18,899 bases of DNA from Candidatus Levyibacteriota bacterium (lineage in GTDB: Bacteria > Patescibacteria > Microgenomatia > Levybacterales > UBA12049), in contig PPGL01000080.1 in the NCBI GenBank assembly GCA_003173915.1, positions 1 through 18,899 on the forward strand, given 5' to 3'. The notes under the pieces are model-generated. The model did not search any database. It worked only from the letters and a program-made list of their open reading frames with translations, and had not been told where the DNA came from. A program made the position numbers and the translations under genes. Below, one piece after another: positions 1,253-18,612 of this stretch (within the stretch, counting starts at the first letter, position 1; the number at the start of each line of letters is the position of its first letter).

Positions 1253-1326
1253 GGACGATTAGCTCAGTTGGCTAGAGCATCTCATTTACACTGAGAGGGT
1301 CTGGGGTTCGAGTCCCTAATCGTCCA
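1253..1326 (+). tRNA. tRNA-Val (anticodon UAC)
   Basis: A full cloverleaf can be drawn. Acceptor GGACGAT (1253-1259) pairs with ATCGTCC (1319-1325), and A1326 is the discriminator base. The D stem is GCTC/GAGC. The anticodon stem TCTCA/TGAGA holds loop TTTACAC, giving anticodon TAC. The T arm has loop TTCGAGT. CCA is not encoded. The gene lies between murL (-) and a PhzF-like gene (-). Its last bases, GTCCA, followed by CT, are the same as the core of the dispersed repeat family that fills the rest of the window. Confidence 0.96.
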
Positions 1327-1400
1327 CTTGAGGCTAAAAATTGAAACACTTCTCTATTTTTCTTAAATTCTGAGGCTAAATTGGTTCGAGTACTTGGTTC
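1320..1400 (+). repeat. Dispersed repeat, copy 1 (directly at the tRNA 3' end)
   Basis: Starting inside the tRNA acceptor, CGTCCACTTGAGGCTAAA is followed about 35 nt later by GAGGCTAAATTGGTTCGAGT. The same two-part order (GTCCACT, GARGCTAAA, spacer, second GAGGCTAA, GGTTCAAGTCC) occurs near 4313-4390 and 9088-9170, and in altered form near 6724-6810. A TATAAT at 1419-1424 follows but no gene start lies downstream of it. Confidence 0.7.
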
Positions 1401-1423
1401 TCTATTGATGTAGTTTGCTATAA

Positions 1424-2287
1424 TTAGTGGAGTTCAATTTCTTCTTTTCCGTAGATAACACAATATCCACCAACTTTTACCTCATTAGACACGTTAACAT
1501 ACATTTTCCCAGCTTTGTCCATGTTATATCCTTGCTCAATAACAAAGTTGTCCTTATTGAGAAGATTATGTTTTTTCAAATAACACCCTAATGCTCCAGC
1601 AGCAACTCCCGTGACTGGATCTTCGTTAATATCTGCTAATGGATTAAACTGACGTGCGCAAAAGTCTGAATCATTTTCTTTGGTCTCTGTTGTATATGGA
1701 TAGATTCCTCTTGCATTGCTACTTCTACAATATTCTTTAATACCTTCCAAATCTGGTTTGATTCTCATTAATGCTTCATAAGAAGTAATTGGGACAATAA
1801 GTTTTGGTGTACCTGTAGAAACAGTTTGTATTGACTGATCTAAAATATCTTTCTTTGAGATGCCAAGGAGGCTTGCTATCAACTCTCTATCTGTTTCTTC
1901 TGGAAAAAATTCAGGATCTTTCTGTGTCATAACAATAAGTCCATTTTTGTAGCCTGTTACGGGAAGAGCCCCTGCTAACGTTTCCTGTATAACAGTTACT
2001 TCATCTTGTTTATCAAAAGAAAGTTTTCCTGTTTCAACCATTACATGAAATGTGGCAAGTGTTGCATGACCACAAAATGCAACTTCTTTTTCTGGAGCAA
2101 AAAATCTATTCTTATACGTTGCTTTTTCTGATTTCTGAATAAATGCAGATTCAGAGAAGTTTAATTTTTTTGCAATACTAAGCATTTGTTCATCCGTTAG
2201 ATTATCTGCATTTAAGATTATTCCTGTTGGATTACCTTGTTTTGGATCTTTGGTAAAAGATTTTACGAGGATAACAGAGACTTTCAT
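1424..2287 (-). CDS. PhzF-family isomerase/epimerase-like protein
   Basis: A 287-residue protein of the usual length for the PhzF (diaminopimelate-epimerase-like) fold. Visible family features: QGNPTGIIL near the N-terminus, NFSESAFI with the glutamate that serves as catalytic acid/base in PhzF (about residue 46), FCGHATLAT (about 72-80) and DPVTGVAAGALGCYL (about 223-237). The true substrate of such stand-alone members is usually unknown; phenazine synthesis should not be assumed because no other phz gene is nearby. ATG at 2287 is preceded by TATACT ending 6 nt upstream, which predicts a leaderless transcript. It is a single-gene unit between the tRNA and the next repeat copy. Confidence 0.88.
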   Translation of the reverse strand: MKVSVILVKSFTKDPKQGNPTGIILNADNLTDEQMLSIAKKLNFSESAFIQKSEKATYKNRFFAPEKEVAFCGHATLATFHVMVETGKLSFDKQDEVTVIQETLAGALPVTGYKNGLIVMTQKDPEFFPEETDRELIASLLGISKKDILDQSIQTVSTGTPKLIVPITSYEALMRIKPDLEGIKEYCRSSNARGIYPYTTETKENDSDFCARQFNPLADINEDPVTGVAAGALGCYLKKHNLLNKDNFVIEQGYNMDKAGKMYVNVSNEVKVGGYCVIYGKEEIELH

Positions 2288-2293
2288 AAGAAG

Positions 2294-2299
2294 AGTATA
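2294..2299 (-). promoter_or_regulatory. -10 element for the PhzF-like gene
   Basis: TATACT on the minus strand, 6 nt before the ATG at 2287. No good -35 was found at 16-18 nt, so this rests on the -10 and its spacing. Confidence 0.5.
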
Positions 2300-2399
2300 T
2301 CAAAGATTAGCAAAGTAGGTTTCACAAAGTAGCCCCTACTGAGTTGCTTGAAGCATCGGATATTGCAGTTCTTCCATTGCATCAGAGATTCTTTTCAAT

Positions 2400-2475
2400 G
2401 AGAAATACAATCTGTTCGAGAAATCATCCCAGTTGTCCACAGATAATGATTAGATTGTCAAATCAATCTAAATTA
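2400..2475 (+). repeat. Dispersed repeat, partial copy with hairpin arm
   Basis: TTGTCCACAGATAATGA is followed by TTAGATTG (2450-2457), six bases, and CAATCTAA (2464-2471), a perfect 8-bp stem. Only the 3' part of the repeat consensus is recognisable. It fills most of the 219-nt gap between two minus-strand genes. Confidence 0.6.
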
Positions 2476-2506
2476 AGCTCTCTAGAAAGATTGAGGTGTT
2501 AGAAGA

Positions 2507-3057
2507 TTAATTTAATCCAAATATTCCAGAAACCATTCCTTGCGTTGCTGGAGAAACATTATTTATAAATTTAACAAATTCTGGAGCTGCTTCAGCTGCT
2601 TTTGTAACCTTATTACCTGCTTCTAAAACTTGCGCTTCAGTTGGTTGAGTGTTTGAATCATAAAACATATTTGCTGAATCTTGAGCAGCTCGCCTAATGG
2701 CTTTTAAATATGCTAAAGCTCCCATATGCTCTTTCACACTTGCTCTCATCGCTAACCCATTCATTTTTTGAGTATAGTCATCTCTTTTTGCAGCAATTTC
2801 TCCATCTGCTCTTCTTCCTTGTTGTGCTCTTGTAGATCGAACTCCTAACTCAAAATAGAAAAACCCAGTAAATATCATTGTTGCACCTGAACCTAAATCA
2901 AATGCTTCCTGTGCGATTCTTCTAATAAGTGGTCTTAAAGCAATCCCTTCTTGCTGCTGGACTTGATAACTTCCCTGTTCAAGAATTTGTTTTTTTGATC
3001 TGCAGTATAAGCATCCGAAATTTGATGTTGATTCCAACGAGGACTTTCTTTTGTCAT
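2507..3057 (-). pseudogene. Membrane-anchored protein of unknown function, one-base frameshift
   Basis: The product is not recognised. A strong promoter and a leaderless ATG at 3057 open a frame starting MTKESPRWNQHQ, but this soon stops. The main frame, uninterrupted from 3037 to 2507, has no good start of its own. One extra A in the A7 run (T7 on the plus strand, 2990-2996) joins them into a 183-aa protein that continues ...ADQKKQILEQGSYQVQQQEG. The joined protein has one hydrophobic segment (GATMIFTGFFYFELGV, about residues 58-73), a basic Q/R-rich stretch after it, and a mostly helical alanine-rich C-terminal half. The defect could be a real mutation, an assembly error or slippage. The alternative is a 176-aa protein from TTG 3037. 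Confidence 0.6.
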
Positions 3058-3063
3058 GGAAGG

Positions 3064-3093
3064 ACTATATCACAAAGTGCACTTCGCAGTCAA
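3064..3093 (-). promoter_or_regulatory. Promoter of the frameshifted membrane-protein gene
   Basis: Minus strand TTGACT (3093-3088), 18-nt spacer, TATAGT (3069-3064), then 6 nt to the ATG at 3057. This near-consensus promoter supports 3057, rather than the TTG at 3037, as the start. Confidence 0.7.
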
Positions 3094-3147
3094 ACTATGA
3101 GATTTTAATTCCAAGGAGTGGAGGGAGTTAGAAAATTATGGATACAA

Positions 3148-3217
3148 AATGTTTGACTCCAACTTTTTTCTGAAATGTCCACAGATGAGATTAGGTTTTC
3201 AGAGTAATCTAAAGACG
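3148..3217 (+). repeat. Dispersed repeat, 3' part with hairpin arm
   Basis: GACTCCAACTTTTTTCTG then AAATGTCCACAGATGAG, followed by TTAGGTT...AATCTAA, a hairpin with one G-U pair. It lies between two divergent genes, in the same orientation as all other copies. Confidence 0.7.
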
Positions 3218-3244
3218 CAGCCTCCTTGCTTAGTTTGAAGGCTA

Positions 3245-3273
3245 TTGATTTATTGGATACAATTTGATACAGT
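3245..3273 (+). promoter_or_regulatory. Promoter of the duplicated small-protein gene
   Basis: TTGATT (3245-3250), 17-nt spacer, TACAGT (3268-3273), then 6 nt to the ATG at 3280. This predicts a leaderless mRNA. Confidence 0.55.
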
Positions 3274-3279
3274 AATTCC

Positions 3280-3712: not shown

Positions 3713-3865
3713 GTTTCCAATACTTTCCTGTGATACTACTCCAAAGCCAATTTGTGGCTAAACTGTAGTATTTCTCCCCATTTCCAAATGTACTCCTCAA
3801 CTCGGTTCCAAGTTTTTCTGAAATGCACACAGTTCATAATTAGATTGATTTGATAATCTAATTGT
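3713..3865 (+). repeat. Dispersed repeat, full-length copy with hairpin arm
   Basis: Order of blocks: GTTTCCAATACTTTCCTGTG, CCAAAGCCAATTTGTGGCTA, CATTTCCAAATGTACTCC, CTCGGTTCCAAGTTTTTCTG, AAATGCACACAG, then a perfect 9-bp hairpin, AATTAGATT (3838-3846) / AATCTAATT (3855-3863), with an 8-nt loop. Confidence 0.8.
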
Positions 3866-3930: not shown

Positions 3931-3939
3931 TTGGTAGTT

Positions 3940-4167
3940 ATGGCAGCGATAGAGTCTACAAGTGGAGAAGCAGGAAAAAACTACCCAAAATTCCAAGGTC
4001 CTGAGAATCCAATTACTGGGTTAAGAAGAACAGCTCGTTTATTATCAGGAACAGAAAAAGGAACTACTACTATGTCTGTGGCAGATACATTTAACATATT
4101 GACTTTTGCGGTTGTTACGGCTATAGCAGCTATAGCTCTTTCGAAAAGAAGAAATTCTAGAAAATAA
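3940..4167 (+). CDS. Small single-pass membrane protein, unknown function
   Basis: A 75-aa protein from ATG 3940. A TTG nine bases upstream is in frame but directly abuts the -10 and is unlikely to be transcribed. The N-terminal 45 residues are polar (AIESTSGEAGKNYPKFQGP). A hydrophobic segment follows (FNILTFAVVTAIAAIAL, about residues 51-67), and the protein ends in a basic tail, SKRRNSRK. This suggests a C-terminally anchored protein with the basic tail inside and the N-terminus outside by the positive-inside rule. No family is recognised. It stands alone between two repeat copies. Confidence 0.65.
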   Translation: MAAIESTSGEAGKNYPKFQGPENPITGLRRTARLLSGTEKGTTTMSVADTFNILTFAVVTAIAAIALSKRRNSRK

Positions 4168-4198: not shown

Positions 4199-4392
4199 GT
4201 TTCTAATACTTCTCTGTGTTACTTGCTCAAGGCAGATTCGTGGTTATTCTGAAGTATAGGGAACCAGTGAAATATGTACTTCTCCATTCGGTTCCAACTT
4301 ATTTCTGAAATGTCCACTCGAAGATAAATTTCAATCTCCAATTTACTTTAGGATAAAAGTTGAGGCTAATCTGGTTCAAGTCCCTGATTCCC
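4199..4392 (+). repeat. Dispersed repeat, full-length copy with T-arm-like end
   Basis: Blocks in order: GTTTCTAATACTTCTCTGTG, GGCAGATTCGTGGTTA, ATTCGGTTCCAACTTATTTC, TGAAATGTCCACTCGAAG, then GAGGCTAATCTGGTTCAAG and TCCCTGATTCCC. The last piece matches the T arm and acceptor of the tRNA-Val at most positions. The 359-nt gap 4168-4526 holds this repeat, a small hairpin at 4458-4472 (TGCCTTT/AAAGGCA) and the promoter of the next gene. Confidence 0.8.
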
Positions 4393-4491
4393 TTTGACAC
4401 CTAATATAAGTTAGCATGACGATGCACGTATTTGAGAAAAAGAACGTTGGGAAGATTTGCCTTTAAAAGGCATTTGTCGGTCAATACTGTA

Positions 4492-4520: not shown

Positions 4521-4526
4521 ATACAA

Positions 4527-5674: not shown

Positions 5675-5793
5675 TGTTCGAGTACTTGCTTGTAATACAA
5701 CTCTAAAGTTAATCATGGCTAATTCTTAATACATCCACCACTTCAAATATATTTCTCCACTCGGTTCCAACATTTTTCTGATTTACACTAATT
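5675..5793 (+). repeat. Dispersed repeat copy
   Basis: Begins GTGTTCGAGTACTTGC (a T-arm-like variant of the usual GTTTCCAATACTTCC), then TAATCATGGCTAATTC, CACCACTTCAAATATATTTC and CTCGGTTCCAACATTTTTCTG. The GTCCAC core is degraded to TTTACAC. Confidence 0.75.
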
Positions 5794-6610: not shown

Positions 6611-6812
6611 GTTTCCAACACTTCCCTGTGCTACTCTCACAAAGCTAATTCATGGCTAAACCGTAAGATTTCCCACCACTTCCAGATATATTTTTCGAGG
6701 AGGTTCCAACTTTTTTCTGAAATGTCCACTAGTCATTTTGAGGCTAAATTTTTTGAGACTTCTTTATTCCTTTTGATTTTTGAATCTAAAAATGGTTCAA
6801 GTACCTAATCCT
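6611..6812 (+). repeat. Dispersed repeat, full-length copy with T-arm-like end
   Basis: GTTTCCAACACTTCCCTGTG, CAAAGCTAATTCATGGCTA, CCACCACTTCCAGATATATT, GGAGGTTCCAACTTTTTTC, TGAAATGTCCACTAG, TTGAGGCTAAAT, then ATGGTTCAAGTACCTAATCC near the end. It lies between convergent genes in the common plus orientation. Confidence 0.8.
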
Positions 6813-6821
6813 ATCTGGGAC

Positions 6822-7511
6822 TCAATTTAAGGAATTAAGAATTGTCACTTCTCCGCCACAGAAACGATTTATTAACGATATTAATTCTTTTACTGCGTTT
6901 TGGATATATGCATTTTCCGTATTACTGTTTCCTTGTATGATGAAAAATGTATCTTGGGAATTAAGAGTAATTTTTGTAGGTTCAACTTGTAAAACTTCAA
7001 GTCTACAAATAATATTTTCTTCGTCATCGATATACGCATATTCTCCTGGGAAAACCGAAACTGGATCCTTGCTCCCAAGTGGTAAAAATTTTTCTTTACC
7101 GTTTGTTAAACGTAAGGATATATTTCCTTGTACATAATTAAGATCGTGCGCTCCTAGTGCAAGACGGGTTTTAAGTGAAATAAGATTGTAAATATCAACA
7201 ACACTATTAATTCGTGGAAAATATCCTTTATCAATAAATCTTCGTACCAACACCTCTGGAGACGCTGGATAATCTCTATTACTTCTTCCAACTTTTGTAT
7301 GCAAATCACGAAATCCCATTAAAACCTTATCTTCCTTATAGTTGTAATTGATCTCATTTAAATGGTTCGAAAGAGTATGTAATTCTTTTGTTAAATAATC
7401 ATCCAATTCATTGCTAGATTTAGTGTTTTTTATTTCAGCTATTAGCAGTGTTACTATCTTTACACCCAATTTTAATACATCTTTAGAAACAGTAAATTTT
7501 AAATCTTTCAT
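6822..7511 (-). CDS. B3/B4 tRNA-binding/editing-like domain protein
   Basis: A 229-aa cytoplasmic protein resembling the stand-alone B3/B4 domain found in phenylalanyl-tRNA synthetase beta subunits, where it contributes to editing of mischarged tRNA. The supporting segment is RSNRDYPASPEVLVRRFIDKG (split here: RSNRDYPASPE and VLVRRFIDKG), then PRINSVVDIYNLISLKTRLALG and AHDLNYVQGNI; the long N..V...N..S...L.LGAHDL pattern is characteristic. The N-terminal ~65 residues are helical. The C-terminal part (PGEYAYIDDE, TFFIIQGN) completes the domain. The start codon is only 12-14 nt downstream of a hairpin with a T-run, so expression may be governed by transcription termination in the leader (7521-7620). 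Biochemical function of free B3/B4 proteins is not firmly known. Confidence 0.75.
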   Translation of the reverse strand: MKDLKFTVSKDVLKLGVKIVTLLIAEIKNTKSSNELDDYLTKELHTLSNHLNEINYNYKEDKVLMGFRDLHTKVGRSNRDYPASPEVLVRRFIDKGYFPRINSVVDIYNLISLKTRLALGAHDLNYVQGNISLRLTNGKEKFLPLGSKDPVSVFPGEYAYIDDEENIICRLEVLQVEPTKITLNSQDTFFIIQGNSNTENAYIQNAVKELISLINRFCGGEVTILNSLN

Positions 7512-7642: not shown

Positions 7643-7654
7643 CTTCCGAAAGAA

Positions 7655-7748
7655 AAAGTTTCCATTCTTTGATTCTAGCCACAAACTCGTCAATTTCTTG
7701 ATTCAAAATAAGAAACTCAAAGTCTGCAGGTATAGATTGGTTTGATAA
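7655..7748 (+). repeat. Second repeat type, copy A
   Basis: Contains TAGCCACAAACTCGTCAATT, TCTTGATTCAAAATAAG and AAACTCAAAGTC, followed by TAGATTGGTTTGATAAACTA. It matches 10848-10965 over roughly 75 nt. It occupies much of the 284-nt gap 7512-7795. Confidence 0.7.
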
Positions 7749-7795
7749 ACTAAATTGTTTATTCCTAGAGAAGTAAGAGTGTTAGAAATTGGAAC

Positions 7796-8567: not shown

Positions 8568-8672
8568 TGAGGCTAAGAATCAACTCTTTAAAGCTGAGTT
8601 GTAATTCTTTGCAGTATAAAAAACCACTTTAAAATATACTCCTCCACTTGGTCCCAACTTATTTCTGAAATA
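8568..8672 (+). repeat. Dispersed repeat copy
   Basis: TTGAGGCTAAGAATC near the start, then ACTCCTCCACTTGGTCCC, AACTTATTTCTGAAAT; the GTCCAC core is lost (ATTTATG instead). It lies between two minus-strand genes but in the plus orientation. Confidence 0.7.
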
Positions 8673-8687
8673 TTTATGTGATTTTAT

Positions 8688-8927
8688 TTATTGTTGAGAA
8701 TTTATGTGAAGTTGTTTCTCAATTGTCTGTATGCGTTCCTCGTGGCTGTTATATCCTTCGTTTATTACATCAGTGAGAACTTGAATAGTGTCTTCTTGGC
8801 TCTTGGTAATTTCTTGTTTTAAGTCTGCTTTTATTTGCTCTGCAGATCCTCTTATTTCTTTCCTCAAAAGTTCAGTGTGAGAAGTAAGTAATTCTCCAAT
8901 TTTCTCAAGAATTTTATCTTCGTTCAT
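8688..8927 (-). CDS. Small coiled-coil protein, unknown function
   Basis: A 79-aa protein that is almost entirely charged amphipathic helix: MNEDKILEKIGELLTSH, ELLRKEIRGSAEQIKADLK, EERIQTIEKQL. Heptad-like spacing of I/L residues predicts a coiled coil. There is no membrane segment, signal or Cys. Similar short coiled-coil ORFs are common in CPR genomes and are not functionally assigned. TATAGT (minus strand, near 8943-8938) ends 10 nt before the ATG at 8927, so the leader would be very short or absent. It is a single-gene unit between repeat copies. Confidence 0.7.
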   Translation of the reverse strand: MNEDKILEKIGELLTSHTELLRKEIRGSAEQIKADLKQEITKSQEDTIQVLTDVINEGYNSHEERIQTIEKQLHINSQQ

Positions 8928-8974: not shown

Positions 8975-9170
8975 TGTTTTAATACCTACCTGTGATAATT
9001 CCTTGAATTTGGACTGAAGCTATTCCAGAGAATTGGATACCACTTCCATACATACTTCTCCACCTGGTTCCAACTTATTTCTGAAATGTCCACTCGAAGC
9101 TAAAGTCTGTAAAGGTCTACTTATTCTTTCGTATTCCTGAAGCTAAATTAGTTCAAGTCCCTCATGCTCA
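8975..9170 (+). repeat. Dispersed repeat, full-length copy with T-arm-like end
   Basis: GTTTTAATACCTACCTGTG, CCACTTCCATACATACTTC, CACCTGGTTCCAACTTATTT, CTGAAATGTCCACTCGAAGC, then GAAGCTAAATTAGTTCAAG and TCCCTCATGCTCA. It fills most of the 307-nt gap 8928-9234; the rest holds the promoter of the next gene. Confidence 0.8.
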
Positions 9171-9198
9171 GTAAATTTTTTAGTCTCAAGCTCTCTTT

Positions 9199-9227
9199 TT
9201 CTCAGCATGTTAATACTGTGATAGAAT
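9199..9227 (+). promoter_or_regulatory. Promoter of the DHFR/RibD-like gene
   Basis: Weak -35 TTCTCA (9199-9204), 17-nt spacer, TAGAAT (9222-9227), 7 nt to the ATG at 9235. Leaderless start. Confidence 0.5.
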
Positions 9228-9234
9228 AATTTTA

Positions 9235-9834
9235 ATGAGAAAGATCATTGTTGTTGAATTTCTTACCCTTGATGGCGTTATGCAGGCGCCAGGTGCTTCA
9301 CAAGAAGATACTAGCGAAGGTTTTAAATACGGTGGATGGATGGGTCCATATTTCGGTAACGACGAAGTTGCTGGTCATGAAATGGAAAAACAAATGAAAG
9401 AGACAGCTAGTTTACTCCTCGGACGAAAAACATACGATATCTTTGCGGGATATTGGCCAGAACATACAGAAACATGGCCTCAGGTAAACAAAATTACAAA
9501 ATACGTTGTTTCAAAAACACTTAAAAACTCGAAGTGGATAAATACTGTCATTCTCACAGATGTTAGCGAATTAAAAAAAATAAAGAACTCAGCCGGTCCA
9601 GACCTACAAGTTTACGGAAGCGCCAATCTTGTTCAGACATTAATGGAGCATGATTTGGTGGATGAATTTTGGCTTAAAATATTTCCTATTACTTTAGGAA
9701 GCGGAAAACGGTTGTTTGATAAAGGCACAATACCTGCTTCCTTCAAGCTCTTTGAATCTAAAATTTCTCCAAATGGAATAATTTTCGCTTACTACAAACG
9801 TGATGGAGAAGTCAAAACAGAATCAATAGTATAA
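9235..9834 (+). CDS. Dihydrofolate reductase / RibD C-terminal family protein
   Basis: A 199-aa cytoplasmic protein of the RibD_C/DHFR-like superfamily. Family features: N-terminal strand MRKIIVVEFLTLDGVMQAPG, then LLLGRKTYDIFAGYWP (about residues 61-76), YVVSKTL, a Rossmann-like LQVYGSANLVQTLMEHDLVD (about 122-141) with the GS(A)xL nucleotide-binding loop, and FPITLGSGKRLFD (about 149-161). These proteins bind NADPH, but the substrate of stand-alone members of this size is not known, and there is no thymidylate synthase nearby to argue for a folate role. It is followed after 104 nt by a VOC-family gene with its own -10. Confidence 0.9.
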   Translation: MRKIIVVEFLTLDGVMQAPGASQEDTSEGFKYGGWMGPYFGNDEVAGHEMEKQMKETASLLLGRKTYDIFAGYWPEHTETWPQVNKITKYVVSKTLKNSKWINTVILTDVSELKKIKNSAGPDLQVYGSANLVQTLMEHDLVDEFWLKIFPITLGSGKRLFDKGTIPASFKLFESKISPNGIIFAYYKRDGEVKTESIV

Positions 9835-9938: not shown

Positions 9939-10835
9939 ATGCAAAGAATTGTTCCAAATTTTTGGTTTGATCATACTGCCAAAGAAGCCGCTGACTTCTA
10001 TATATCAGTATTTACAGATAGCAAAATTATTTCGCAGTCTTACTATCCAAAGACTGCAGAAGAAGGACTTGCTGATTTTCAAAAGGATTTTGCTGGAAAA
10101 GTATTGACAGTTGATTTTGAGCTAAGTGGATATCGGTTTATAGCAATTAATGCTGATACAACGTTTAAGCCGAATCCATCAATTTCATTTTTTTATACCT
10201 GTGATTCAAAAGAAGAAATCGATGCATTATGGAAAAAATTATCAGAGAGTGGTAAAACACTGATGGATCTTGGGGAATATCCATTTAGTAAATATTATGG
10301 TTGGGTACAGGATAAGTTTGGTTATAGTTGGCAGCTAATATTAAATAAACCTGAGGGTGATAAACGTCCTAAAATTGTTCCTTCACTACTGTTTACGAAA
10401 GAACGGGATGGGCAAGCAGAAGAAGCAATGAGGTTTTATACGTCTGTTTTTACAGATAGTGAGGTAAGTAAGAATCTTAATAAGTATCCAACTGAGATGG
10501 GGTCAGATCGAGAAGACAAGATTTCCTATGCTGATTTTAGGCTTTTTGATCAATGGTTTGCTGTTATGGATGGTGGAAAGGAGCATGATTTTACCTTTAC
10601 TCCGGCAATTTCACTGATGATATTATGCAAAAATCAAGAAGAAATTGATTATTATTGGGGAAAACTATCTGCAGTACCTGAAGCAGAACAGTGTGGTTGG
10701 CTCCAAGACAAATATGGTGTTAACTGGCAAATTACTCCAGAAAATATAGAAGAACTATTAAAAGTCCCAGGAGCATTTAAACGAATGATGGGTATGCATA
10801 AGCTTGATATGGCAAAATTACAAAAAACTGAATAA
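9939..10835 (+). CDS. Double-domain VOC (PhnB-like) protein
   Basis: A 298-aa protein made of two copies of the glyoxalase/VOC fold of the PhnB subtype. Each copy opens with a P.L/NxxF...A.FY.SVF.DS pattern: IVPNFWFDHTAKEAADFY plus SVFTDSKI near residues 4-29, and KIVPSLLFTKERDGQAEEAM with FYTSVFTDSEV near 144-175. Each ends with a CGWLQDKYGVNWQI/GWVQDKFGYSWQLI strand (about 124-137 and 250-264). VOC proteins often bind a divalent metal and small molecules; PhnB-type duplicates are commonly annotated by homology to methyltransferase-like domains without proven activity. The gene may be cotranscribed with the upstream DHFR-like gene or use its own -10. It ends before a second-type repeat. Confidence 0.88.
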   Translation: MQRIVPNFWFDHTAKEAADFYISVFTDSKIISQSYYPKTAEEGLADFQKDFAGKVLTVDFELSGYRFIAINADTTFKPNPSISFFYTCDSKEEIDALWKKLSESGKTLMDLGEYPFSKYYGWVQDKFGYSWQLILNKPEGDKRPKIVPSLLFTKERDGQAEEAMRFYTSVFTDSEVSKNLNKYPTEMGSDREDKISYADFRLFDQWFAVMDGGKEHDFTFTPAISLMILCKNQEEIDYYWGKLSAVPEAEQCGWLQDKYGVNWQITPENIEELLKVPGAFKRMMGMHKLDMAKLQKTE

Positions 10836-10847: not shown

Positions 10848-10965
10848 GAAAAAAACTCTCCAGTCGTTAATTTTAGCTACAAACTCGTCAATTTCTTGGT
10901 TCGAAATAAGAAAATTAAAGTCCACAAATAACGATTAGATTGATTTTTCATTCTAAATTATAATA
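10848..10965 (+). repeat. Second repeat type, copy C, with hairpin-like arm
   Basis: TAGCTACAAACTCGTCAATT, TCTTGGTTCGAAATAAG, AAAGTCCACAAATAACGA, then TTAGATTGATTTTTCATTCTAA, whose ends pair with one mismatch. The last half matches the arm of the first repeat family (2435-2471, 3830-3863), so the two types share a 3' module. Confidence 0.7.
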
Positions 10966-11011: not shown

Positions 11012-11751
11012 ATGAATGAGCGCCCTGATCCAAATCGTGGCTTAACAGGAGGTGGAGATGGAAGATTCTTTGTAAGGTATCAGGATTCCAATAAAATTGA
11101 TAGATATATCACTCATGTCCATAATTTGAATGCAACAAGTTTAACGCCTCGTTTTATTAGACGGATACCTAGTGCATATTACCCACACTCTGATCTTCTT
11201 ATTTATGAACGTGTATATGGACATAATCTTTCGGAATTACCTTCTGATATGAGAGAGCAAACATATACAAATGCATTTGCCAAAAAGTTAGCACAAGTTC
11301 TTACAGATTTGCATAATGCTGGATTTACTCACGGAGATGCGCATGCAGGGAATTTCATGCTTGAGGATGAAACGGGGAAAATAGTTATCGTTGATGATGA
11401 GACCATAGGTCCTGTTGATCCTGAACTGAAGTTGCCAAGACAATTGGCGGACATACTTTTAGGTACATATTTACAAGAGAACCCTTTTTTATTAGTAATG
11501 GAATTGAATCGTATTAAAAAATACATACACGAACGACAAATTTTTATGTTTATCCACCTGATACAACATTGAAAAGTATGTCTCAAAGGGAAAGGCAAGA
11601 AATTGAAGTAGATGCGTTATTGGAAGTATTAAGAGATAGAAATATAGCAAATAAAGTGGATCCAGAATTACTTAACTTTATTAGGGATGCTATGGTTGAT
11701 GCAACAATACCAGATGACTTAAATAGAATATTTAATCTTGAAAATATCTAA
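11012..11751 (+). pseudogene. Protein-kinase-like (Bud32/APH-like) phosphotransferase with a frameshift
   Basis: The first frame (11012-11572, 186 aa) has kinase hallmarks: a Gly-rich GLTGGGDGRFF (10-20), a hinge-like LLIYERVYGHNL (62-73), helix AKKLAQVLTDLHNAGF, the catalytic loop THGDAHAGNF (106-115; D109 and N114) and the metal-binding IVIVDDETIG (124-133). The normal N-lobe is very short and no clear Lys-bearing strand is obvious. Near 11540 the reading frame breaks. The plus-one frame continues with FYVYPPDTTLKSMSQRERQ and runs to 11751. Adding one T to the TTTTT run at 11541-11545 restores a 246-aa protein ending LNRIFNLENI. Small kinases of this type (Kdo kinase, Bud32, aminoglycoside kinase relatives) differ in substrate, so none is assigned. 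The catalytic core lies upstream of the break and could still fold. Confidence 0.65.
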
Positions 11752-11786
11752 GTTATTCCAATAATTCCTTGTGGTATTAACTCAGT

Positions 11787-12576
11787 CTAAGTTGTGGGAT
11801 CCAGTAGAGCTTTACAAACTCTTCCAATACGGATGCCATTTGTTGTTCTTAGGGCGTGTATTTCTTCTTGAGTTGCCCAATATATTAAAGGAGGTATCCT
11901 ATTGTGCTCAATAAGTTCTGATACTTCTGTTAGGGTTTGTTGATTTACTGATTTTTGACCTCTGTATTCTTCTAACAAAGTGTATAATTGTTGAGCATTA
12001 ACCATTTGTGATGCATCATGCAATTTTCGTTCCACACGTGGATCAGTAATATGTGCGTCATGTACTTCTGCGGCAATAAGCATTGTCCCTGTATTCCATC
12101 CTCTTCTGGAAGTAGCATCTCTGTGAGAGTGAGTACGTTTATCTTCACTGATAACAATAGTCTTCACATCATCAGGAGTAAGAATGCCAAATTCATCTAC
12201 TAATTCTTCTCTTACTTCACGTCTTGGACTTTGTTCGATTCCAACTCCTCTGTTAAACCACGAAAGCACAGCTTCTTCATTTAAAGCTGTATCCTCCATA
12301 AGGAAGCGTGCATCGTTGTTATGCTCCAACATCACTGGTTCACGTAATCTTAAAGCTGTTTGTAAACTTGCTCTTCCTTCTTGAGTTAATTCGACGCCTC
12401 CTCCTATTGGTGTTAATACGATATCTGCACCTCTGTAAAGACGTCCTTTATTAATCATAAGTGCGTAACGACCCTGAGAATCTCTAAGGGAGACAAAGCT
12501 GTTACAACTTACTCTAATAAACTCAGGTGAAATTCCTTGTATTTTTTTCTCCACGAGCTTCTATCGGAGGCTGCAT
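11787..12576 (-). pseudogene. SMODS-associated-NUDIX-like (S-NUDIX) protein, probable one-base frameshift near the start
   Basis: The main frame gives 255 aa from GTG 12554. It shows a NUDIX-type layout with a long insertion: VLTPIGGGVELTQEG (46-60), about 50 residues including DARFLMEDTALNEEAVLSWF, then the helix RREVREELVDEFGIL (111-125). A Gly-rich PxGGG turn, an intervening ~50-60 aa, a WF..R..E and REV.EEL segment is how I recall the SMODS-associated NUDIX family linked to CBASS-like nucleotide signalling. In the strict Nudix helix the usual Arg is replaced (E-E-L-V-D-E-F-G). TATACT ends 8 nt before an ATG at 12576 that opens MQPPIEARGEK; removing one A from the A7 run (12542-12548) would fuse it to the main frame (262 aa). 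If GTG 12554 is the true start there is no frameshift. No cyclase or effector gene is adjacent. Confidence 0.55.
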
Positions 12577-12619
12577 AAGCAGGTAGTATAAATTATTGAG
12601 AAACCAATTTCAATTTAAA

Positions 12620-12770
12620 GTTAAAATACTTCACTGTGATTCTACTCCAAAGCTAGTTCGTGCCTAACATTTAATACTTCCCACCACTTCCAAATATACT
12701 CTTCGGTTCGGTTTCAACTAATTTCTGAAACGTCCACAAACTACGGTTAGACTGTCAATATAATCCGTTG
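12620..12770 (+). repeat. Dispersed repeat, full-length copy with degraded arm
   Basis: AAAATACTTCACTGTGATTC, CCAAAGCTAGTTCGTGCCTA, CCACCACTTCCAAATATACT, TTCGGTTTCAACTAATTTCTG, AAACGTCCACAAAC, then GGTTAGACTG...AATCCG, an imperfect arm. It lies between divergent genes. Confidence 0.75.
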
Positions 12771-12802
12771 ATTCTCGCAGACCCCGTTAATCATCTTATA
12801 GT

Positions 12803-14202: not shown

Positions 14203-14229
14203 GAAGGTATAAATATTATTAAACTCCTA

Positions 14230-14280
14230 ATTTCCAAATATAGCCCTCCACTCGGTACCAAGATTTTTCTGAAATGTCAC
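14230..14280 (+). repeat. Dispersed repeat, partial copy
   Basis: TTTCCAAATATAGCCCTCC, ACTCGGTACCAAGATTTTTC, TGAAATGTCAC. Only the central block of the repeat is preserved. Confidence 0.65.
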
Positions 14281-14301
14281 TAATACCAAGTTACCTCTTC
14301 A

Positions 14302-14332: not shown

Positions 14333-14375
14333 TTTATTATACAAATAAAACCAGATTTTTTGTTTGCTATTAAAA

Positions 14376-17138
14376 ATGAAACAAAGAATTATCCAAGGTA
14401 TTACTGCGTTGTCTCAAATTAAGGTTGTTCTTCTAAACATTGGTATTTTTTTTGTGTACGTTATTCTTGGTAAATTTGGCCTTTCTTTTGCGTTTGCCAA
14501 TCCAAGTGCAACACCTATATGGGCACCAACCGGTGTGGCAATTGCATCACTGCTGATTTTTGGTTACGAAGTTTTTCCAGCTATTCTTCTTGGGGCATTT
14601 ATTGTCAATGTTACGACAACTGGTAATATTCCAACATCCATTGGTATTGCTTTAGGCAATACCCTTGAGGGTATTGTTGGAGTGTATTTTGTCAAAAAAT
14701 TTGCTAATGGTATTCATGCATTCGATAAGGTTATAGATGTTTTTACATTCACCATTTTAGTAGGAGGTATTAGTACTACGGTCAGCGCAACTCTTGGTGT
14801 ATTTACGCTTTTTCTTGGTCACCTAACATCTTTACAACAATTTTGGAATGTGTGGATAACATGGTGGCTTGGTGATATGGGAGGAGCGCTTATTGTGGCT
14901 CCATTCTTGCTGGTGTGGGCAACGCATCCACGCATTCATTTTAATTCTCGAGGTATACTTCACCTACTAGCAGTTATCCTCAGTATTATTGTGGTGACGC
15001 AAGTAGTTTTCTTAGGGATAATTCCTTATGCATATCTGTGTATTCCTATTGGTGTATGGATGGCCTTTTGGTTTGGTAGGCGAGGTGCTGTAAGTGCAAC
15101 AATTCTTGTTGCGGCAATAGCTATTCAAGATACACTCCATGGTAGTGGTCCATTTGCACATGTGGGTAGTCTCAATCAATCATTGGTACTTTTACAAATG
15201 TTTTTGAACATTTTTTCTCTCACAGGTCTGACATTTGCAGTAATGATTTTGGAATTTCGAAAAAGTGAAAAAGTGATTGCCTCTCAGGAAAAGCGTTTTC
15301 AGTTTCTACTTGAAAAAAGTTTTGATGCTTTTGTGCTTATTGAGCCGAGCTCAAAAATTACCTACGCAAGTCCTTCGGTTAAACACCTTTTGGGATATAC
15401 TCCCGAAGAATTAGTGGGGACCATTGGGTTTGATTTAGTTATTGAAGAAGATAGATCGCGGATTATGAAAGAGCTTGCTATGTTGGTACTAAAACCTGGA
15501 GGGTTTGTGACAGTTGAGTATAGAGCAATGCGCAAAGATAAAAAAATTATTTGGATTGAGGCAACAGGAACAAATTTATTGTTTGATCCAACAATTCGTG
15601 CCGTTGTTGTAAATTTCAGAGATATAACAGAAAGAAAATATCACGAAGAGGAGGTAAAGCAAAATGAGAAGAGATTTAGATCCCTTGTGGAAAAAAGTGG
15701 TGAAGGAATTGCCCTTATTGATAAAAAGGGGAAGATTATCTATACCACTGCAACAATTACTGACTTACTTGGATATACACAAGAAGAATACGAAAAGAAA
15801 GATCCAGCTTCACTTATGCACCCAGATGATGTGGAATCAGTGCAGAAGAAATCAAGAGAAATCCTGAGCAAACCAGGTACTAGTGTTTCCCTTCAGTATC
15901 GTGTAAAGCATAAAGATGATACATACAGGTGGTTTGATGTTTTAGCAACCAATCTCTTAGACGATGAAGCTGTACATGCATATGTGGTTAATTTTCGTGA
16001 TATTACAGATGTAAAAAATGCAGAAGAAACAATGCATAAAGAAAAAATACAAGATGAGGCAATGCTTGGAAGTATTGGTGATGGTGTTATTGCAACAGAT
16101 AATACGGGTAAAATTACTATGATAAATACCCGCGGTGCTGCGGTATTAGGATGGGATGAAAAAGATATTGTTGGGAAAAATATTATTGATGCTGTTCCAC
16201 TTGAAGACGAGCTTGGTCAACGATTGAAAGTCGAAGAAAGACCAATTACAAAAGTGCTTACATTGGGTAAACCGATTATTACATCATCGACAGTTTTTTA
16301 TGTGAGAAAGGATGGAACAAAATTCCCGGTTCACTTTACAACTACTCCAATTGTTTTGAAGAATAAGGTTGTTGGTGCAATTGAGGTATTTTATGATATT
16401 ACACGGGAAAAAGAAGTAGACAAAGCTAAAACAGAATTTGTATCAGTTGCATCTCACCAACTGCGTACTCCCCTAGCAACAATCAACTGGTATGTTGAAG
16501 AACTCATCAAAAATGCCTCTAATATGTCTGAAAAGCAAGTGAGTTACCTGAAGGAAGTGTATTCAGCCAGTAAGCGTATGGTAGAGCTTATTAATTCACT
16601 TTTGAATGCATCGCGTCTTGAGCTTGGAACATTTGTTGTTGAACCAAATGAGGTGCAGATTCCAGATATTGTGAGGCAAGTAATAAAAGACTTAACTGCA
16701 AAAATAGAGCAAAAACATGTAACCATAGAACAAAAATATGATAAGGAATTACCGTCAATACAAGCAGATCCAAAGTTACTCACCATTATTATTCAAAATC
16801 TTTTGGGTAATGCCATAAAGTATACAAAGCCTTCTGATACAATTTTAATAACTGTTAGTCATAACGCAAAGGAGTTTTTGATAACAGTAACAGAACATGG
16901 ATATGGTATTCCTAAAAATCAACAAGACAAAATTTTCACAAAATTATTTAGAGCAGATAATGCACGTATGGTAGAGCCTGAAGGAACAGGACTCGGTCTT
17001 TATATTGTTAAGTCAATTGTGACAACAACGGGTGGGAAAATTTGGTTTGATTCAGAAGAGAATAAGGGAACAAGCTTTTTTGTATCATTTCCTCTTTCTG
17101 GAATGAAACAAAAAGAAGGACAAAAGCAATTAATTTGA
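14376..17138 (+). CDS. Membrane sensor histidine kinase: MASE1, three PAS, HisKA, HATPase
   Basis: 920 aa from ATG 14376; an in-frame TTG 12 nt upstream is less likely. Residues ~15-300 are a MASE1-type sensor with about eight membrane helices and the characteristic NPSATPIWAPTGVAIA motif. Three PAS domains follow (about 307-425, 430-548, 560-685), each ending in a (N/D)FRDIT or YDIT-like linker. The HisKA H-box is FVSVASHQLRTPL, with His694 as phosphoacceptor. The ATPase domain has the N-box NLLGNAIKYT (808-817), RADNA, and GTGLGL (870-875). The G1 box reads EHGYGI (840-845) rather than D.G.GI, so the adenine-contacting Asp is Glu. The kinase probably phosphorylates the two receiver proteins encoded next. 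The stimulus cannot be read from the sequence. Confidence 0.95.
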   Translation: MKQRIIQGITALSQIKVVLLNIGIFFVYVILGKFGLSFAFANPSATPIWAPTGVAIASLLIFGYEVFPAILLGAFIVNVTTTGNIPTSIGIALGNTLEGIVGVYFVKKFANGIHAFDKVIDVFTFTILVGGISTTVSATLGVFTLFLGHLTSLQQFWNVWITWWLGDMGGALIVAPFLLVWATHPRIHFNSRGILHLLAVILSIIVVTQVVFLGIIPYAYLCIPIGVWMAFWFGRRGAVSATILVAAIAIQDTLHGSGPFAHVGSLNQSLVLLQMFLNIFSLTGLTFAVMILEFRKSEKVIASQEKRFQFLLEKSFDAFVLIEPSSKITYASPSVKHLLGYTPEELVGTIGFDLVIEEDRSRIMKELAMLVLKPGGFVTVEYRAMRKDKKIIWIEATGTNLLFDPTIRAVVVNFRDITERKYHEEEVKQNEKRFRSLVEKSGEGIALIDKKGKIIYTTATITDLLGYTQEEYEKKDPASLMHPDDVESVQKKSREILSKPGTSVSLQYRVKHKDDTYRWFDVLATNLLDDEAVHAYVVNFRDITDVKNAEETMHKEKIQDEAMLGSIGDGVIATDNTGKITMINTRGAAVLGWDEKDIVGKNIIDAVPLEDELGQRLKVEERPITKVLTLGKPIITSSTVFYVRKDGTKFPVHFTTTPIVLKNKVVGAIEVFYDITREKEVDKAKTEFVSVASHQLRTPLATINWYVEELIKNASNMSEKQVSYLKEVYSASKRMVELINSLLNASRLELGTFVVEPNEVQIPDIVRQVIKDLTAKIEQKHVTIEQKYDKELPSIQADPKLLTIIIQNLLGNAIKYTKPSDTILITVSHNAKEFLITVTEHGYGIPKNQQDKIFTKLFRADNARMVEPEGTGLGLYIVKSIVTTTGGKIWFDSEENKGTSFFVSFPLSGMKQKEGQKQLI

Positions 17139-17183
17139 GAGCGAACTGTGCATTCATGTAAGTATTTTCTTGGTTAAACACTC

Positions 17184-17212
17184 TTGCAATCTGGAAAAGA
17201 GATGGGTATGCT
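17184..17212 (+). promoter_or_regulatory. Promoter of the receiver-protein pair
   Basis: TTGCAA (17184-17189), 17-nt spacer, TATGCT (17207-17212), 6 nt to the ATG at 17219. It lets the receivers be expressed independently of the kinase. Confidence 0.65.
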
Positions 17213-17218
17213 TATATT

Positions 17219-17638
17219 ATGGACAATCAAAAGAAAGTTGTTCTTATTACGGAAGATGAACCCGCAATGCTTCGTATCCTCTCAGATAAATTAGCAGAAA
17301 GTGGATTTAATACACTCCAGGCAACAAATGGTCAAGAAGGCCTTCAACAAGCCCTTATACACCATCCAAATCTGATTGTGCTTGATGTTCTGATGCCAAA
17401 AATGGATGGTATGATTATGCTTAATAAGTTACGTGAGGATAAGTGGGGAAAAGAAGTTCCGGTCGTGATGCTGACAAATGTAAGCGCAGACTCCAATGAA
17501 GCACTTGAGGAAATTGTTCGTACTCAACCTGCATATTATTTTGTAAAATCAGATACCAAACTTGAGGATATTGTTGAAAAAATTAAAGAAATTCTAATAT
17601 CTTCCCTTGAACCATCAGAAAAAGTAGTTGCTGCTTGA
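17219..17638 (+). CDS. Stand-alone response-regulator receiver protein
   Basis: 139 aa, a single CheY-like REC domain with no output domain. Visible residues: acidic pocket E12-D13, phosphoacceptor D56 in VLDVLMPKMDG, T86 in MLTN and K110 in FVKSD. The last ~15 residues (SSLEPSEKVVAA) are a short tail. It starts 80 nt after the kinase gene but has its own leaderless promoter, so it can be transcribed alone or by readthrough. It probably accepts phosphate from the upstream kinase; the downstream target is unknown. Confidence 0.95.
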   Translation: MDNQKKVVLITEDEPAMLRILSDKLAESGFNTLQATNGQEGLQQALIHHPNLIVLDVLMPKMDGMIMLNKLREDKWGKEVPVVMLTNVSADSNEALEEIVRTQPAYYFVKSDTKLEDIVEKIKEILISSLEPSEKVVAA

Positions 17639-17649
17639 TGGGTGTTTCG

Positions 17650-17655
17650 TAAGGT
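17650..17655 (+). promoter_or_regulatory. Shine-Dalgarno-like site of the second receiver gene
   Basis: TAAGG (17650-17654) lies 5 nt before ATG 17660. It is the only convincing ribosome binding site seen here and sits at an internal operon position. It favours ATG 17660 over the upstream in-frame GTG 17642. Confidence 0.6.
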
Positions 17656-17659
17656 ACAT

Positions 17660-18091
17660 ATGGGATTTATCGATAATTTGAAAGTATTGACAGGTAAGCT
17701 ACCAGTCGTAACCTCTCCTCCCAAAAAGAAAATTCTTATTGTTGAGGACGAAAAACCATTGCAGTCTGTTCTTCAAGATAGATTTACTTCTGAAGGCTAT
17801 GAAGTGATAACGGCAAACAATGGTCAAGAAGGACTTGATATGGCAATTAGCCAGAAACCTGACATGATCATTTTGGATTTATTGATGCCTGTTATGAATG
17901 GGATAACAATGTTGCAAAAATTACGTGATATTTCAGAATTCAAGAAGCTTCCTGTACTTGTTCTGACGAATGCTGGTGAAATAGACAATATCCGTCAGAC
18001 CACGACGTACAGCAACGCAGCATCATTTCTTATCAAGTCCAACGTGACTACAGACGAAATTGTTGAGGAAGTCAAAACTTTATTCTACTGA
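17660..18091 (+). CDS. Second stand-alone receiver protein
   Basis: 143 aa from ATG 17660 (149 if GTG 17642). A 20-residue N-terminal extension (MGFIDNLKVLTGKLP...) precedes a REC domain with E29-D30, phosphoacceptor D73 in ILDLLMPVMNG, T103 in VLTNAG and K126 in FLIKSN. It shares NNGQEGL and LLMPxMxG with the first receiver, which suggests a local duplication. It follows the first receiver after 21 nt and is translated from an SD-like site, so the two form one operon. There is no output domain; it may be a phosphate sink or an adaptor. Confidence 0.94.
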   Translation: MGFIDNLKVLTGKLPVVTSPPKKKILIVEDEKPLQSVLQDRFTSEGYEVITANNGQEGLDMAISQKPDMIILDLLMPVMNGITMLQKLRDISEFKKLPVLVLTNAGEIDNIRQTTTYSNAASFLIKSNVTTDEIVEEVKTLFY

Positions 18092-18124
18092 AAATTGTAG
18101 AAATCTCTTTGCTCCTTCTCTATT

Positions 18125-18236
18125 TTGAGGCTAAATTATACAAATTCTAAATATATTCCACTACGCGGTTCTAAGTTTTTTCTGGAATATCCACAAGTAA
18201 TGAGTAGATTGATTACGAAGGTATCAAACTAATAAG
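18125..18236 (+). repeat. Dispersed repeat copy with hairpin-like arm
   Basis: TTGAGGCTAAATTATAC, TTCCACTACGCGGTTCTAAG, TTTTTTCTGGAATATCCACA, then TAGATTGAT...ATCAAACTA, an arm with one mismatch. A TATAAT at 18251-18256 follows with no downstream start codon at a usable distance. Confidence 0.7.
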
Positions 18237-18270
18237 AATGTTTTAAATAGTATAATCAAGGGTTTCTAAC

Positions 18271-18286
18271 ACGAGTAAATACTCGT
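18271..18286. terminator. Hairpin at the end of the minus-strand small gene
   Basis: ACGAGTA/TACTCGT, a perfect 7-bp inverted repeat with a 2-nt centre, overlapping the TAA stop of the minus-strand gene. No T-run follows, so termination is uncertain. Confidence 0.3.
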
Positions 18287-18487
18287 TAAGCAGGAACCAG
18301 ATTTCTTGCTCTTAGTCGTCTTGTTGGATCTGCCAATGGTTCTGCTGGAGTAGGTTGAGTTTGAGGTCCAGGATTCTCTAGACGAATGTACCTCTCTTTC
18401 TCGTTGGTTAAGGCTTCCTGTAGCCATTCTATTTACAATTCTCGGTTTAGGCCTTGATTCGCTAAATATGCCGTAATAAATTGACAT
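18286..18487 (-). pseudogene. Small protein of unknown function with a one-base frameshift
   Basis: The best promoter in the window leads to ATG 18487, opening MSIYYGIFSESRPKPRIV. In that frame the rest is Ser/Arg/Lys-rich and unconvincing (73 aa to a TAG at 18266). Shifting by one base gives a far more protein-like continuation, IEWLQEALTNEKERYIRL then ENPGPQTQPTPAEPLADP, ending RNLVPA at 18286. Removing one base in the AAA at 18434-18432 would join them into a 66-aa protein. No function is recognised. The break may be real or a sequence error. Confidence 0.5.
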
Positions 18488-18494
18488 ACAGCAT

Positions 18495-18523
18495 ATAATA
18501 TATAAATTATTCTCAATTGTCAA
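18495..18523 (-). promoter_or_regulatory. Consensus promoter of the small minus-strand gene
   Basis: Minus strand TTGACA (18523-18518), 17-nt spacer, TATTAT (18500-18495), 7 nt to the ATG at 18487. Confidence 0.8.
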
Positions 18524-18579
18524 ACTACAGGATTCTTGTTCACTACTACGATTAAGAATTCATCAAACTAATTAATTAT

Positions 18580-18612
18580 GTTTCCAATACTTCCCTGTGT
18601 TACTGCTTGAAA
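18580..18612 (+). repeat. Dispersed repeat, 5' fragment
   Basis: GTTTCCAATACTTCCCTGTG followed by TTACTGC matches the first block of the full-length copies at 3713, 4199 and 6611. The rest of the element is missing. Confidence 0.65.

Follow-up and report, generated by a model that had tools for sequence, protein, structure and literature searches.

The window analysed here, the whole 18,899-nucleotide stretch of contig PPGL01000080.1, begins with a MurL-like gene followed by a tRNA-Val(TAC) gene, and from the right of this tRNA to the window end about 17 genes are found, which run in both directions and have no evident common function. These unrelated genes are separated by 13 junctions of common design, all lying on the plus strand. 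It is very likely that the window shows the left portion of an array in which small site-specific integrative cassettes are lined up in tandem behind the tRNA-Val(TAC) gene of an uncultured bacterium, whose closest relatives in this analysis are Microgenomates-type metagenome-assembled genomes (MAGs). Three observations carry this reading, namely the anatomy of the junctions, the insertion at the 3′ ends of transfer-messenger RNA (tmRNA) and tRNA genes in relatives, and one two-armed unit which is present at two tRNAs.

The design of the junctions is a left arm, a core GTCCAC and a right arm, and the core is the same as the last six bases of the tRNA-Val gene. At the tRNA-Val 3′ end the core and the right arm are those of junctions 4, 6 and 9, and the tRNA itself is therefore the first junction; a preliminary description of this DNA had placed a repeat copy at 1320, which is really the tRNA-Val(TAC) 3′ end (1253–1327) together with the right arm. 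The left arm is of three types: the main arm (P1; 115–130 bp by alignment of the copies), the P2 arm (at 7653–7727 and 10851–10925, inside a 94-base repeat with 80% likeness) and the arm of junction 1. The two P2 junctions had been missed in the earlier list of copies, and the copy given at 2400 is indeed a junction, with a left arm of a different type. The string GGTTC[C/G]A, 15 bases and GTCCAC is common to four window junctions, with zero such strings on the minus strand. Right arms are of two kinds, and these were described correctly before, including the T-arm-like end. Type G (TTGAGGCTAAA, about 30 bases, TGAGGCTAAA and then a tRNA T-arm-like GGTTC) is present after tRNA-Val and after junctions 4, 6 and 9, while type H, a TTAGATT/AATCTAA hairpin or a similar form, was recognised by eye after junctions 1, 2, 3, 10 and 14. 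The core-to-core distance in the window is 416 to 3913 bp. Besides the tRNA, the Rfam scan of the window gave a single match below the cut-off, away from the junctions.

The repeat family is real, and the earlier claim that it lies in the gaps in one orientation on the plus strand holds. A left-arm profile of 21 rows, all of them copies from other genomes, matched nine window stretches at expect values (E) ≤ 8e-7 with 22.9 to 76.1 bits, on the plus strand only (starts at 3715, 4201, 5676, 6613, 8587, 8976, 12620, 14230 and 18139). Weaker plus-strand matches of the same profile begin at 11756 (E 0.002, 11.8 bits), 18582 (0.003, 11.5 bits) and 3152 (0.012, 9.3 bits), and two further ones at E 0.2 and 0.6 are chance-like. 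As a control, 100 dinucleotide shuffles gave 4 matches, the best having 10.8 bits; therefore only the nine strong stretches are beyond doubt by this test, and the three weaker ones (9.3 to 11.8 bits) are not distinct by it. The genomes behind the 21-row profile were picked with a model of the window copies, so the independence of the test is incomplete. With a profile from six window copies, 18581 was matched at E 3e-5 and 3155 at 2e-4. The exact 28-base left-arm pattern had zero matches in genome contigs and viral contigs. The pattern GTCCAC..AGGCTAAA was matched six times in 82 genomes (two true arms, in G001 and G079, three places apparently in conserved 23S rRNA by eye, and one taken as chance), and control patterns matched about as often, hence this pattern alone proves nothing. 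Positions of all the features are collected in Table 1.

Table 1. Features of the window, with position, strand and basis or remark (ORF, open reading frame; aa, amino acids; nt, nucleotides).
Feature	Position	Strand	Basis or remark
MurL-like gene, left host flank of the array	2..1150	-	C-terminus beyond the window; 7125 homologs among scored candidates
tRNA-Val(TAC), integration target	1253..1327	+	ARAGORN; Rfam 67 bits; 3′ end GTCCAC = 1322-1327
Right arm type G (TTGAGGCTAAA..TGAGGCTAAATTGGTTCGAG), attL	1328..1407	+	directly 3′ of tRNA-Val; same arm after tRNA-Val in L001
Cargo, PhzF family	1424..2287	-	Pfam PF02567
Junction 1: left arm ending TGTTCGAGAAATCATCCCAGTTGTCCAC, then type H hairpin arm	2407..2475	+	sequence, core table
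Cargo, 176 aa	2507..3037	-	Pfam: none
Junction 2: 3′ fragment of main left arm, GTCCAC, type H arm	3150..3215	+	
Cargo, 137 aa	3280..3693	+	Pfam: none
Junction 3: full main left arm, altered core, type H arm	3713..3865	+	
Cargo, 78 aa ORF	3931..4167	+	ORF call only
Junction 4: full main left arm, GTCCAC, type G arm	4199..4397	+	
Cargo, 365 aa	4527..5624	+	Pfam / NCBIfam: none
Junction 5: main left arm, decayed core	5675..5790	+	
Cargo, 248 aa	5839..6585	+	Pfam: none
Junction 6: full main left arm, GTCCAC, type G arm	6611..6818	+	
Cargo, B3/4 domain protein	6822..7511	-	PF03483
Junction 7: second left-arm type (P2), decayed core GTCTGC	7653..7760	+	
Cargo, 207 aa	7796..8419	-	Pfam: none
Junction 8: main left arm minus first ~27 bp, decayed core	8586..8677	+	
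Cargo, 79 aa ORF	8688..8927	-	ORF call only
Junction 9: full main left arm, GTCCAC, type G arm	8975..9173	+	
Cargo, RibD C-terminal domain (RibD_C) protein	9235..9834	+	PF01872; 84% nt, 89% aa to L273 (G062)
Cargo, 3-dmu-9_3-mt / VOC-type protein	9939..10835	+	PF06983; missing from the G062 version of the RibD_C unit
Junction 10: P2 left arm, GTCCAC, type H arm	10851..10960	+	P2 arm closes the G062 unit too
Cargo, kinase-like gene, two overlapping ORFs (11012-11572, 11569-11751)	11012..11751	+	
Possible 5′ fragment of main left arm	11756..11841	+	E 0.002, barely above best shuffle
Cargo, NUDIX-like protein (Sa_NUDIX)	11787..12554	-	PF18167
Junction 12: full main left arm, CGTCCAC, variant right arm	12619..12780	+	
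Cargo, 402 aa	12994..14202	+	Pfam / NCBIfam: none
Junction 13: 3′ half of main left arm, decayed core	14229..14281	+	
Cargo, MASE1-PAS histidine kinase and two response regulators (14364-17138, 17219-17638, 17642-18091)	14364..18091	+	
Junction 14: partial main left arm, ATCCAC, type H-like arm	18122..18230	+	
5′ fragment of main left arm; array right end beyond the window	18580..18648	+	E 3e-5 / 0.003 by profile

The homologs of MurL pointed to Microgenomates-type MAGs as the relatives of this bacterium. In one of these loci (L001) MurL and tRNA-Val lie near each other as in the window, and after the tRNA come, in this order, a type G arm, one MFS-type and one PhoU-like gene (both named by eye) and a truncated left arm. 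Of 82 genomes from the order, 22 had a match to the main left arm, as did 38 of 373 sampled genomes of the class, in one or two places each, by searches with fast filters which lose weak matches. The profile scan of related genomes, which had been proposed earlier as a check, thus revealed no even spread, the matches lying mostly at tmRNA and tRNA genes. In total 35 arm loci were read, from 20 of the 22 positive order genomes (18 kept), from 16 of 27 new class genomes and from four recombinase loci (one with an arm); weak matches in G080 and G004 were dropped, being unconfirmed by a broader profile (G080 had E 0.0017 with the window-only profile). At 26 of these 35 loci the left arm lies 0.55–9.4 kb downstream of a tmRNA gene, on the same strand, and closes an insertion. 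Seven loci have no tmRNA in the stretch, six of these stretches ending within 4 kb and one being the tRNA-Val locus of G001. The tmRNA of L157 is a partial profile match and the arm of L145 a 44-base match.

Occupied and unoccupied tmRNA sites are both present among the relatives (82 loci found, 68 of them over the family cut-off, and 30 read). Unoccupied tmRNA genes end in CTCCAC, after which comes a terminator or directly the neighbouring gene (the latter in G015, G002 and G081), and a terminator-like hairpin follows unoccupied tmRNA genes too. In G017 the CTCCAC of the tmRNA is followed by a 1.36-kb insertion, at whose far end stand the left arm and CCCCAC; beyond it lies the homologous neighbouring gene (homology by eye). 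G025 carries two tandem units in the order tmRNA, T1, unit, arm, T1, unit, arm, T2, where the T1 hairpin stands almost unchanged after the tmRNA and after the first arm, which is what stepwise insertion beside the tmRNA predicts; two arms in succession are also present in G022, G150 and G384. As in elements targeted to tRNA or tmRNA genes, the element boundary is at the 3′ end of such a gene and the core is repeated at the far end. Small GIY-YIG-type proteins were seen near the tmRNA insertions of L107, L108, L114, L117–L119 and L122 (L118 by Pfam, the others by eye), and Fic-type genes at L108 9486–10586, L120 9896–11239 and L230 10172–11113 (L120 by PF02661 and PADLOC SoFic, the others by eye).

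The type G arm was searched for with a separate model (R3, of which a shuffle control was not part), and 11 places from its best matches were followed; G230 and G038, of similar rank, were left out, and weaker matches (E 1e-4 to 0.05), many of them probably chance, were mostly left aside. Five of the 11 loci adjoin a tRNA, the match (E 3e-14 to 4e-5) standing directly 3′ of tRNA-Leu(CAA) in G062 and G316, tRNA-Asp(GTC) in G155, tRNA-Glu(TTC) in G043 and tRNA-Glu(CTC) in G368, and the arm is also directly after tRNA-Leu(CAG) in G024 and tRNA-Val in G001 and in the window. At the G024 locus (L230 8843–9961) the tRNA-Leu(CAG) and its type G arm are accompanied by two left-arm ends in tandem, which belong to a further type (GGTTCCAACATCGTCCCAGATGGT[C/G]CAC). 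On visual comparison this G arm ends in a T-arm-like sequence that resembles the T-arm of its own tRNA-Leu(CAG), as that of the window resembles the T-arm of tRNA-Val. In G073 the contig start (L199/L232) carries a tRNA-Val 97% identical to that of the window and then a terminator-like hairpin, and then a repeat of 18 bp identical to the tRNA-Val 3′ end (GAGTCCCTAATCGTCCAC), with a G-like arm just before the contig end. A P2-like arm ending GTGCAC lies right before the 5′ end of tRNA-Val in G026 (L204 1562–1657).

In G062 the order is tRNA-Leu(CAA), type G arm, RibD_C gene, P2 arm ending GTCCAC and then a flank without further match. By blastn G062 matches window positions 9138–9834 at 84% and 10849–10932 at 81% (the protein at 89%), and this match starts within the type G arm and stops 7 bases past the core GTCCAC; in the window only, a VOC-type gene stands between the RibD_C gene and the P2 arm. 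Both genomes carry the RibD_C unit with its two ends, and it is therefore one unit at two tRNA genes of two genomes. Tandem insertion at one attachment site, offered earlier as one explanation, is well supported by the tRNA-Val 3′ end, by the occupied and unoccupied tmRNA sites and by this unit recurring at another tRNA. The RibD_C unit is a single case of the same element at different sites, in a sample with one genome per species. Homologs of RibD_C are present in 21 of 373 genomes and both arms only in G062; the homolog in G001 has a G arm near it in the other orientation, and the remaining ones showed no arm within the flanks examined (up to 1.5 kb). A comparison of MurL divergence with G062 was attempted and MurL was found in one of seven genomes, therefore the identity of the RibD_C cassette stands without a core-gene yardstick. 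An MFS transporter gene (by eye; 80% identity over 467 aa) occurs both in G029, directly beyond an arm of the tmRNA locus, and in G001, beyond the G arm that follows tRNA-Val; in G029 it may also be native flank.

Large serine recombinases of 510–522 aa are encoded inside the unit at the tmRNA in G036, G051 and G037. Pfam PF00239 was matched in all three, and PF13408 or PF07508 was over the cut-off in one each. The G036 protein has matches at 1e-10 in 25 of 82 genomes, and seven genes belong to one family near full length, the query and six others at 49–68% identity (G036, G051, G037, G008, G022, G024 and G066). All seven overlap the 3′ end of the tmRNA tail to tail by some 35–45 bases; four of them have a left arm on their own contig (in one as a 44-bp piece, E 8e-4), and two on a different contig. 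Among the best 120 of 1162 homologs the named organisms are mostly Patescibacteria, e.g. Levybacteria and Saccharimonadales. Serine recombinase genes of other subfamilies overlap tRNA-Val(TAC) in G005 and, split, in G024. The enzyme of the window array is probably a large serine recombinase as well, to judge from the common left arm.

Based on these features the following mechanism may be proposed as the simplest account. A cassette would consist of a right-type arm (G, in which TTGAGGCTAAA is present twice, or H, a terminator-like hairpin), one to three genes and a left-type arm, whose intact end would be GGTTC[C/G]A-N15-GTCCAC or a near form. We infer a circular intermediate, in which both arms would be joined around the core, and recombination at (G/C)TCCAC with the tRNA 3′ end or an array junction would insert the cassette, leaving tRNA, core and right arm on the tRNA side and left arm, core and neighbour on the other. 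Repeated insertion, rather than duplication, would then give rise to the array, with same-orientation junctions between unrelated genes, the orientation being set by the asymmetric site and not by the genes, and growth could continue where the tRNA-adjacent junction stays usable. The large serine recombinase, carried at the tmRNA-side end of larger relatives, would act in trans on the gene-only cassettes.

A number of findings weigh against this proposal. At two of the 35 arm loci the tmRNA is on the strand opposite to the left arm (L112 10558–10938 in G076, and L151 in G142); in L112 a smpB-like gene close by (named by eye) also runs against the tmRNA, which is inversion-like. Six of the 11 R3 loci do not abut a recognised tRNA (in G121 a tRNA-like fragment precedes the arm), and for the remaining window cargo genes no counterpart with arms turned up in the other loci examined. 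With respect to the enzyme, the G066 recombinase genome yielded no left arm in the search, 17 of the 22 arm-bearing order genomes (drafts) have no close recombinase relative, and G001, G079 and G043, which carry type G arms, have zero recombinase matches at 1e-10 (drafts also). The 15 window proteins run against Pfam include no recombinase, of the IntI type or otherwise, the tyrosine family not having been searched for, and none of the serine recombinases was seen beside the type G arms in L273–L283 (ORF starts by eye). The type G profile has no match at E ≤ 10 in the sequence beside the tmRNA recombinases, therefore the tie between the serine recombinase and the tRNA array rests on the common left arm; the idea that the type G arm is a relic of the recombinase gene 3′ end was not upheld by the same result. 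By eye, the type G arm and the tmRNA recombinase flank both contain GC(T/C)AAA and then GGTTC or a near form. The conserved arm of 115 bp also exceeds the sites of about 50 bp that are usual for serine integrases.

Part of the array is old, as shown by its decayed cores and truncated arms: six of the 14 tabulated cores are altered, which also counts against the proposal above, and several left arms are truncated in the window. The whole array may accordingly be thought of as a fossil, made by old insertions whose integrases have since been lost, its junctions being remnants without present movement, and the lack of a recombinase in the window and of close recombinase relatives in most arm-bearing genomes is in line with this. 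We find such an explanation plausible and yet lean against it, since eight of the 14 cores (tRNA counted in) are intact, junctions 4, 6 and 9 keep the full left arm, core and right arm, the RibD_C unit stands at another tRNA of another genome at 84% nucleotide identity and T1 is repeated nearly unchanged in G025. Much of the array may nevertheless be fossil.

It is also conceivable, although we regard it as unlikely, that the tRNA arrays are moved by a tyrosine recombinase, either their own or the host Xer, and that the serine recombinase is confined to the tmRNA. tRNA and tmRNA genes are usual targets of tyrosine integrases (PMC4383910). The 18-bp repeat of the tRNA-Val 3′ end precedes the G-like arm in G073, the type G arms do not match the tmRNA recombinase sites, and the long arms with repeated GGCTAAA motifs are like arm-type sites. 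On the other side, no tyrosine recombinase gene, the kind expected in the earlier description, was recognised beside any junction, though the family was not searched for, and serine recombinase genes of other subfamilies overlap tRNA-Val(TAC) in G005 and G024.

Three other explanations are far less probable than integrative cassettes. If the repeat were a conserved non-coding RNA or regulatory element with a terminator, multiplied in the genome, the terminator-like hairpin after the arm in several relatives would be understood, and in one of ten copies the fold is matched by only 5 of 200 shuffles (z -2.17); the nine other copies have z -0.83 to 1.52, a conserved fold is absent in 30 aligned copies, no Rfam model matched the arm at gathering score (one Trp_leader match in L092 lies far below, E 1.6), a like hairpin follows unoccupied tmRNA genes and the arm closes insertions, so that this is very improbable. 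Just as improbable is one unit duplicated in tandem with later replacement of the genes between, which would likewise give one orientation, considering that no cargo gene resembles a duplicate in another unit (by Pfam and repeats, not all-against-all) and that a two-armed unit exists in G062. A dispersed non-autonomous transposon or repetitive extragenic palindromic (REP)-type repeat landed in gaps, which the intergenic position and many degenerate copies might recall, is the least credible of all in view of the one orientation, the one or two matches per relative genome mostly at tmRNA or tRNA, and the arm-core-arm structure anchored on a tRNA end.

Regarding the genes of the window, a few of the 120 listed homologs of the MurL-like gene (7125 scored) are named UDP-N-acetyl-alpha-D-muramoyl-L-alanyl-L-glutamate epimerase, and this gene has extra in-frame stretches relative to its relatives (window 1–140 and 640–760), which resemble repeat insertions; some relatives have their own. 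Six window cargo proteins are without a Pfam match, the small ORFs being outside the 15 proteins run. The 137-aa ORF contains an internal 93-bp tandem duplication at 3374–3559, and the first ORF of the kinase-like gene (11012–11751) weakly matches the PADLOC models MkoA and PD-T4-6.

Patescibacteria have very small genomes, and their gene gain is little understood. The arm-core-arm structure behind tRNA and tmRNA genes provides a searchable signature of gene acquisition across a class of Patescibacteria, and the junctions mark boundaries for several genes without a known family. If it is true that the cassettes move in trans, an integron-like layout would be combined with double-stranded sites at tRNA ends. 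In a wider and more doubtful reading, offered tentatively, this may be a system of cassette capture in Patescibacteria, a serine counterpart of integrons, where gene-only cassettes with conserved two-sided attachment (att) sites would circulate among the 3′ ends of tmRNA and several tRNA genes by a recombinase in trans and build arrays of a dozen or more small cassettes in streamlined genomes.

Among the published systems compared, the ssrA islands of Dehalococcoides (McMurdie et al. 2011; PMC3146451) are the nearest. These islands are in tandem downstream of ssrA, with the gene for the large serine integrase DsiB on the reverse strand where they border on ssrA and with a conserved motif ahead of the repeated core, and 16 of 31 islands have the integration module while 15 are without it and are possibly mobilised with their neighbours by accretion (PMC3146451). 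The present system shares the tandem units behind ssrA, the large serine recombinase at the ssrA-side end, the units lacking a module and the motif before the core. It differs by a core of about 5–6 bp at the very 3′ end, a conserved arm of about 115 bp, units of 0.4–3.9 kb (window), several tRNA targets besides tmRNA and a different phylum. The 20-bp ssrA repeat with T-loop insertion, of the DsiB type, was not found, the core here being about TCCAC at the 3′ terminus, and no DsiB-type six-gene integration module was recognised by eye in the ORFs beside three recombinases. At the level of titles and abstract openings, with few subscription journals, no description of a comparable system was seen in the literature, whether for Patescibacteria or for serine recombinases acting at ssrA.

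In staphylococci the staphylococcal cassette chromosome elements (SCC/SCCmec) are inserted by CcrAB or CcrC at the 3′ end of rlmH. They are alike in having a serine recombinase, a single attachment site, tandem composite islands and elements without recombinase, but the SCC target is a protein gene, the islands are larger, and the recombinases found here match CcrB weakly (52.8 and 73.6 bits, cut-off 900); the relation of the SCC recombinases to DsiB is covered in PMC3146451. Segments flanked by att sites also pile up without their own integrase at one site in the array, as in cis-mobilizable elements (CIMEs) and in tandem accretion at tRNAs, whereas its units are of single-gene size and its arms are common to a class of bacteria. 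The CIMEs known so far come from large integrative and conjugative elements. Tycheposons likewise target tRNAs in small streamlined genomes, and differ by their tyrosine recombinases and larger cargo.

Mobile integron cassettes have attC sites, the IntI integrase and an attI anchor. The window resembles them in its short units of one or a few unrelated genes, with one att site each and fixed site orientation, and unrelated genes between same-orientation sites are an integron-type feature. The earlier suggestion of a cassette system therefore stands for the layout and fails for membership in integrons, and its remark that the sites misfit attC was right: RNAalifold gave 0 pairs in 12 and in 30 aligned copies, and single-strand DNA folding gave z -2.17 to 1.52 in 10 copies with one below -1, on which an attC-like fold was rejected. 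Membership is also opposed by the large serine recombinase encoded at the related tmRNA sites. Unlike integrons, the window has no integron integrase seen in it, a tRNA anchor instead of attI and arms on both sides of the core. The array is thus integron-like in layout but not an integron; it belongs to the integrative elements targeted to tRNA and tmRNA genes, probably to the serine-recombinase islands, and is cassette-like in scale and layout.

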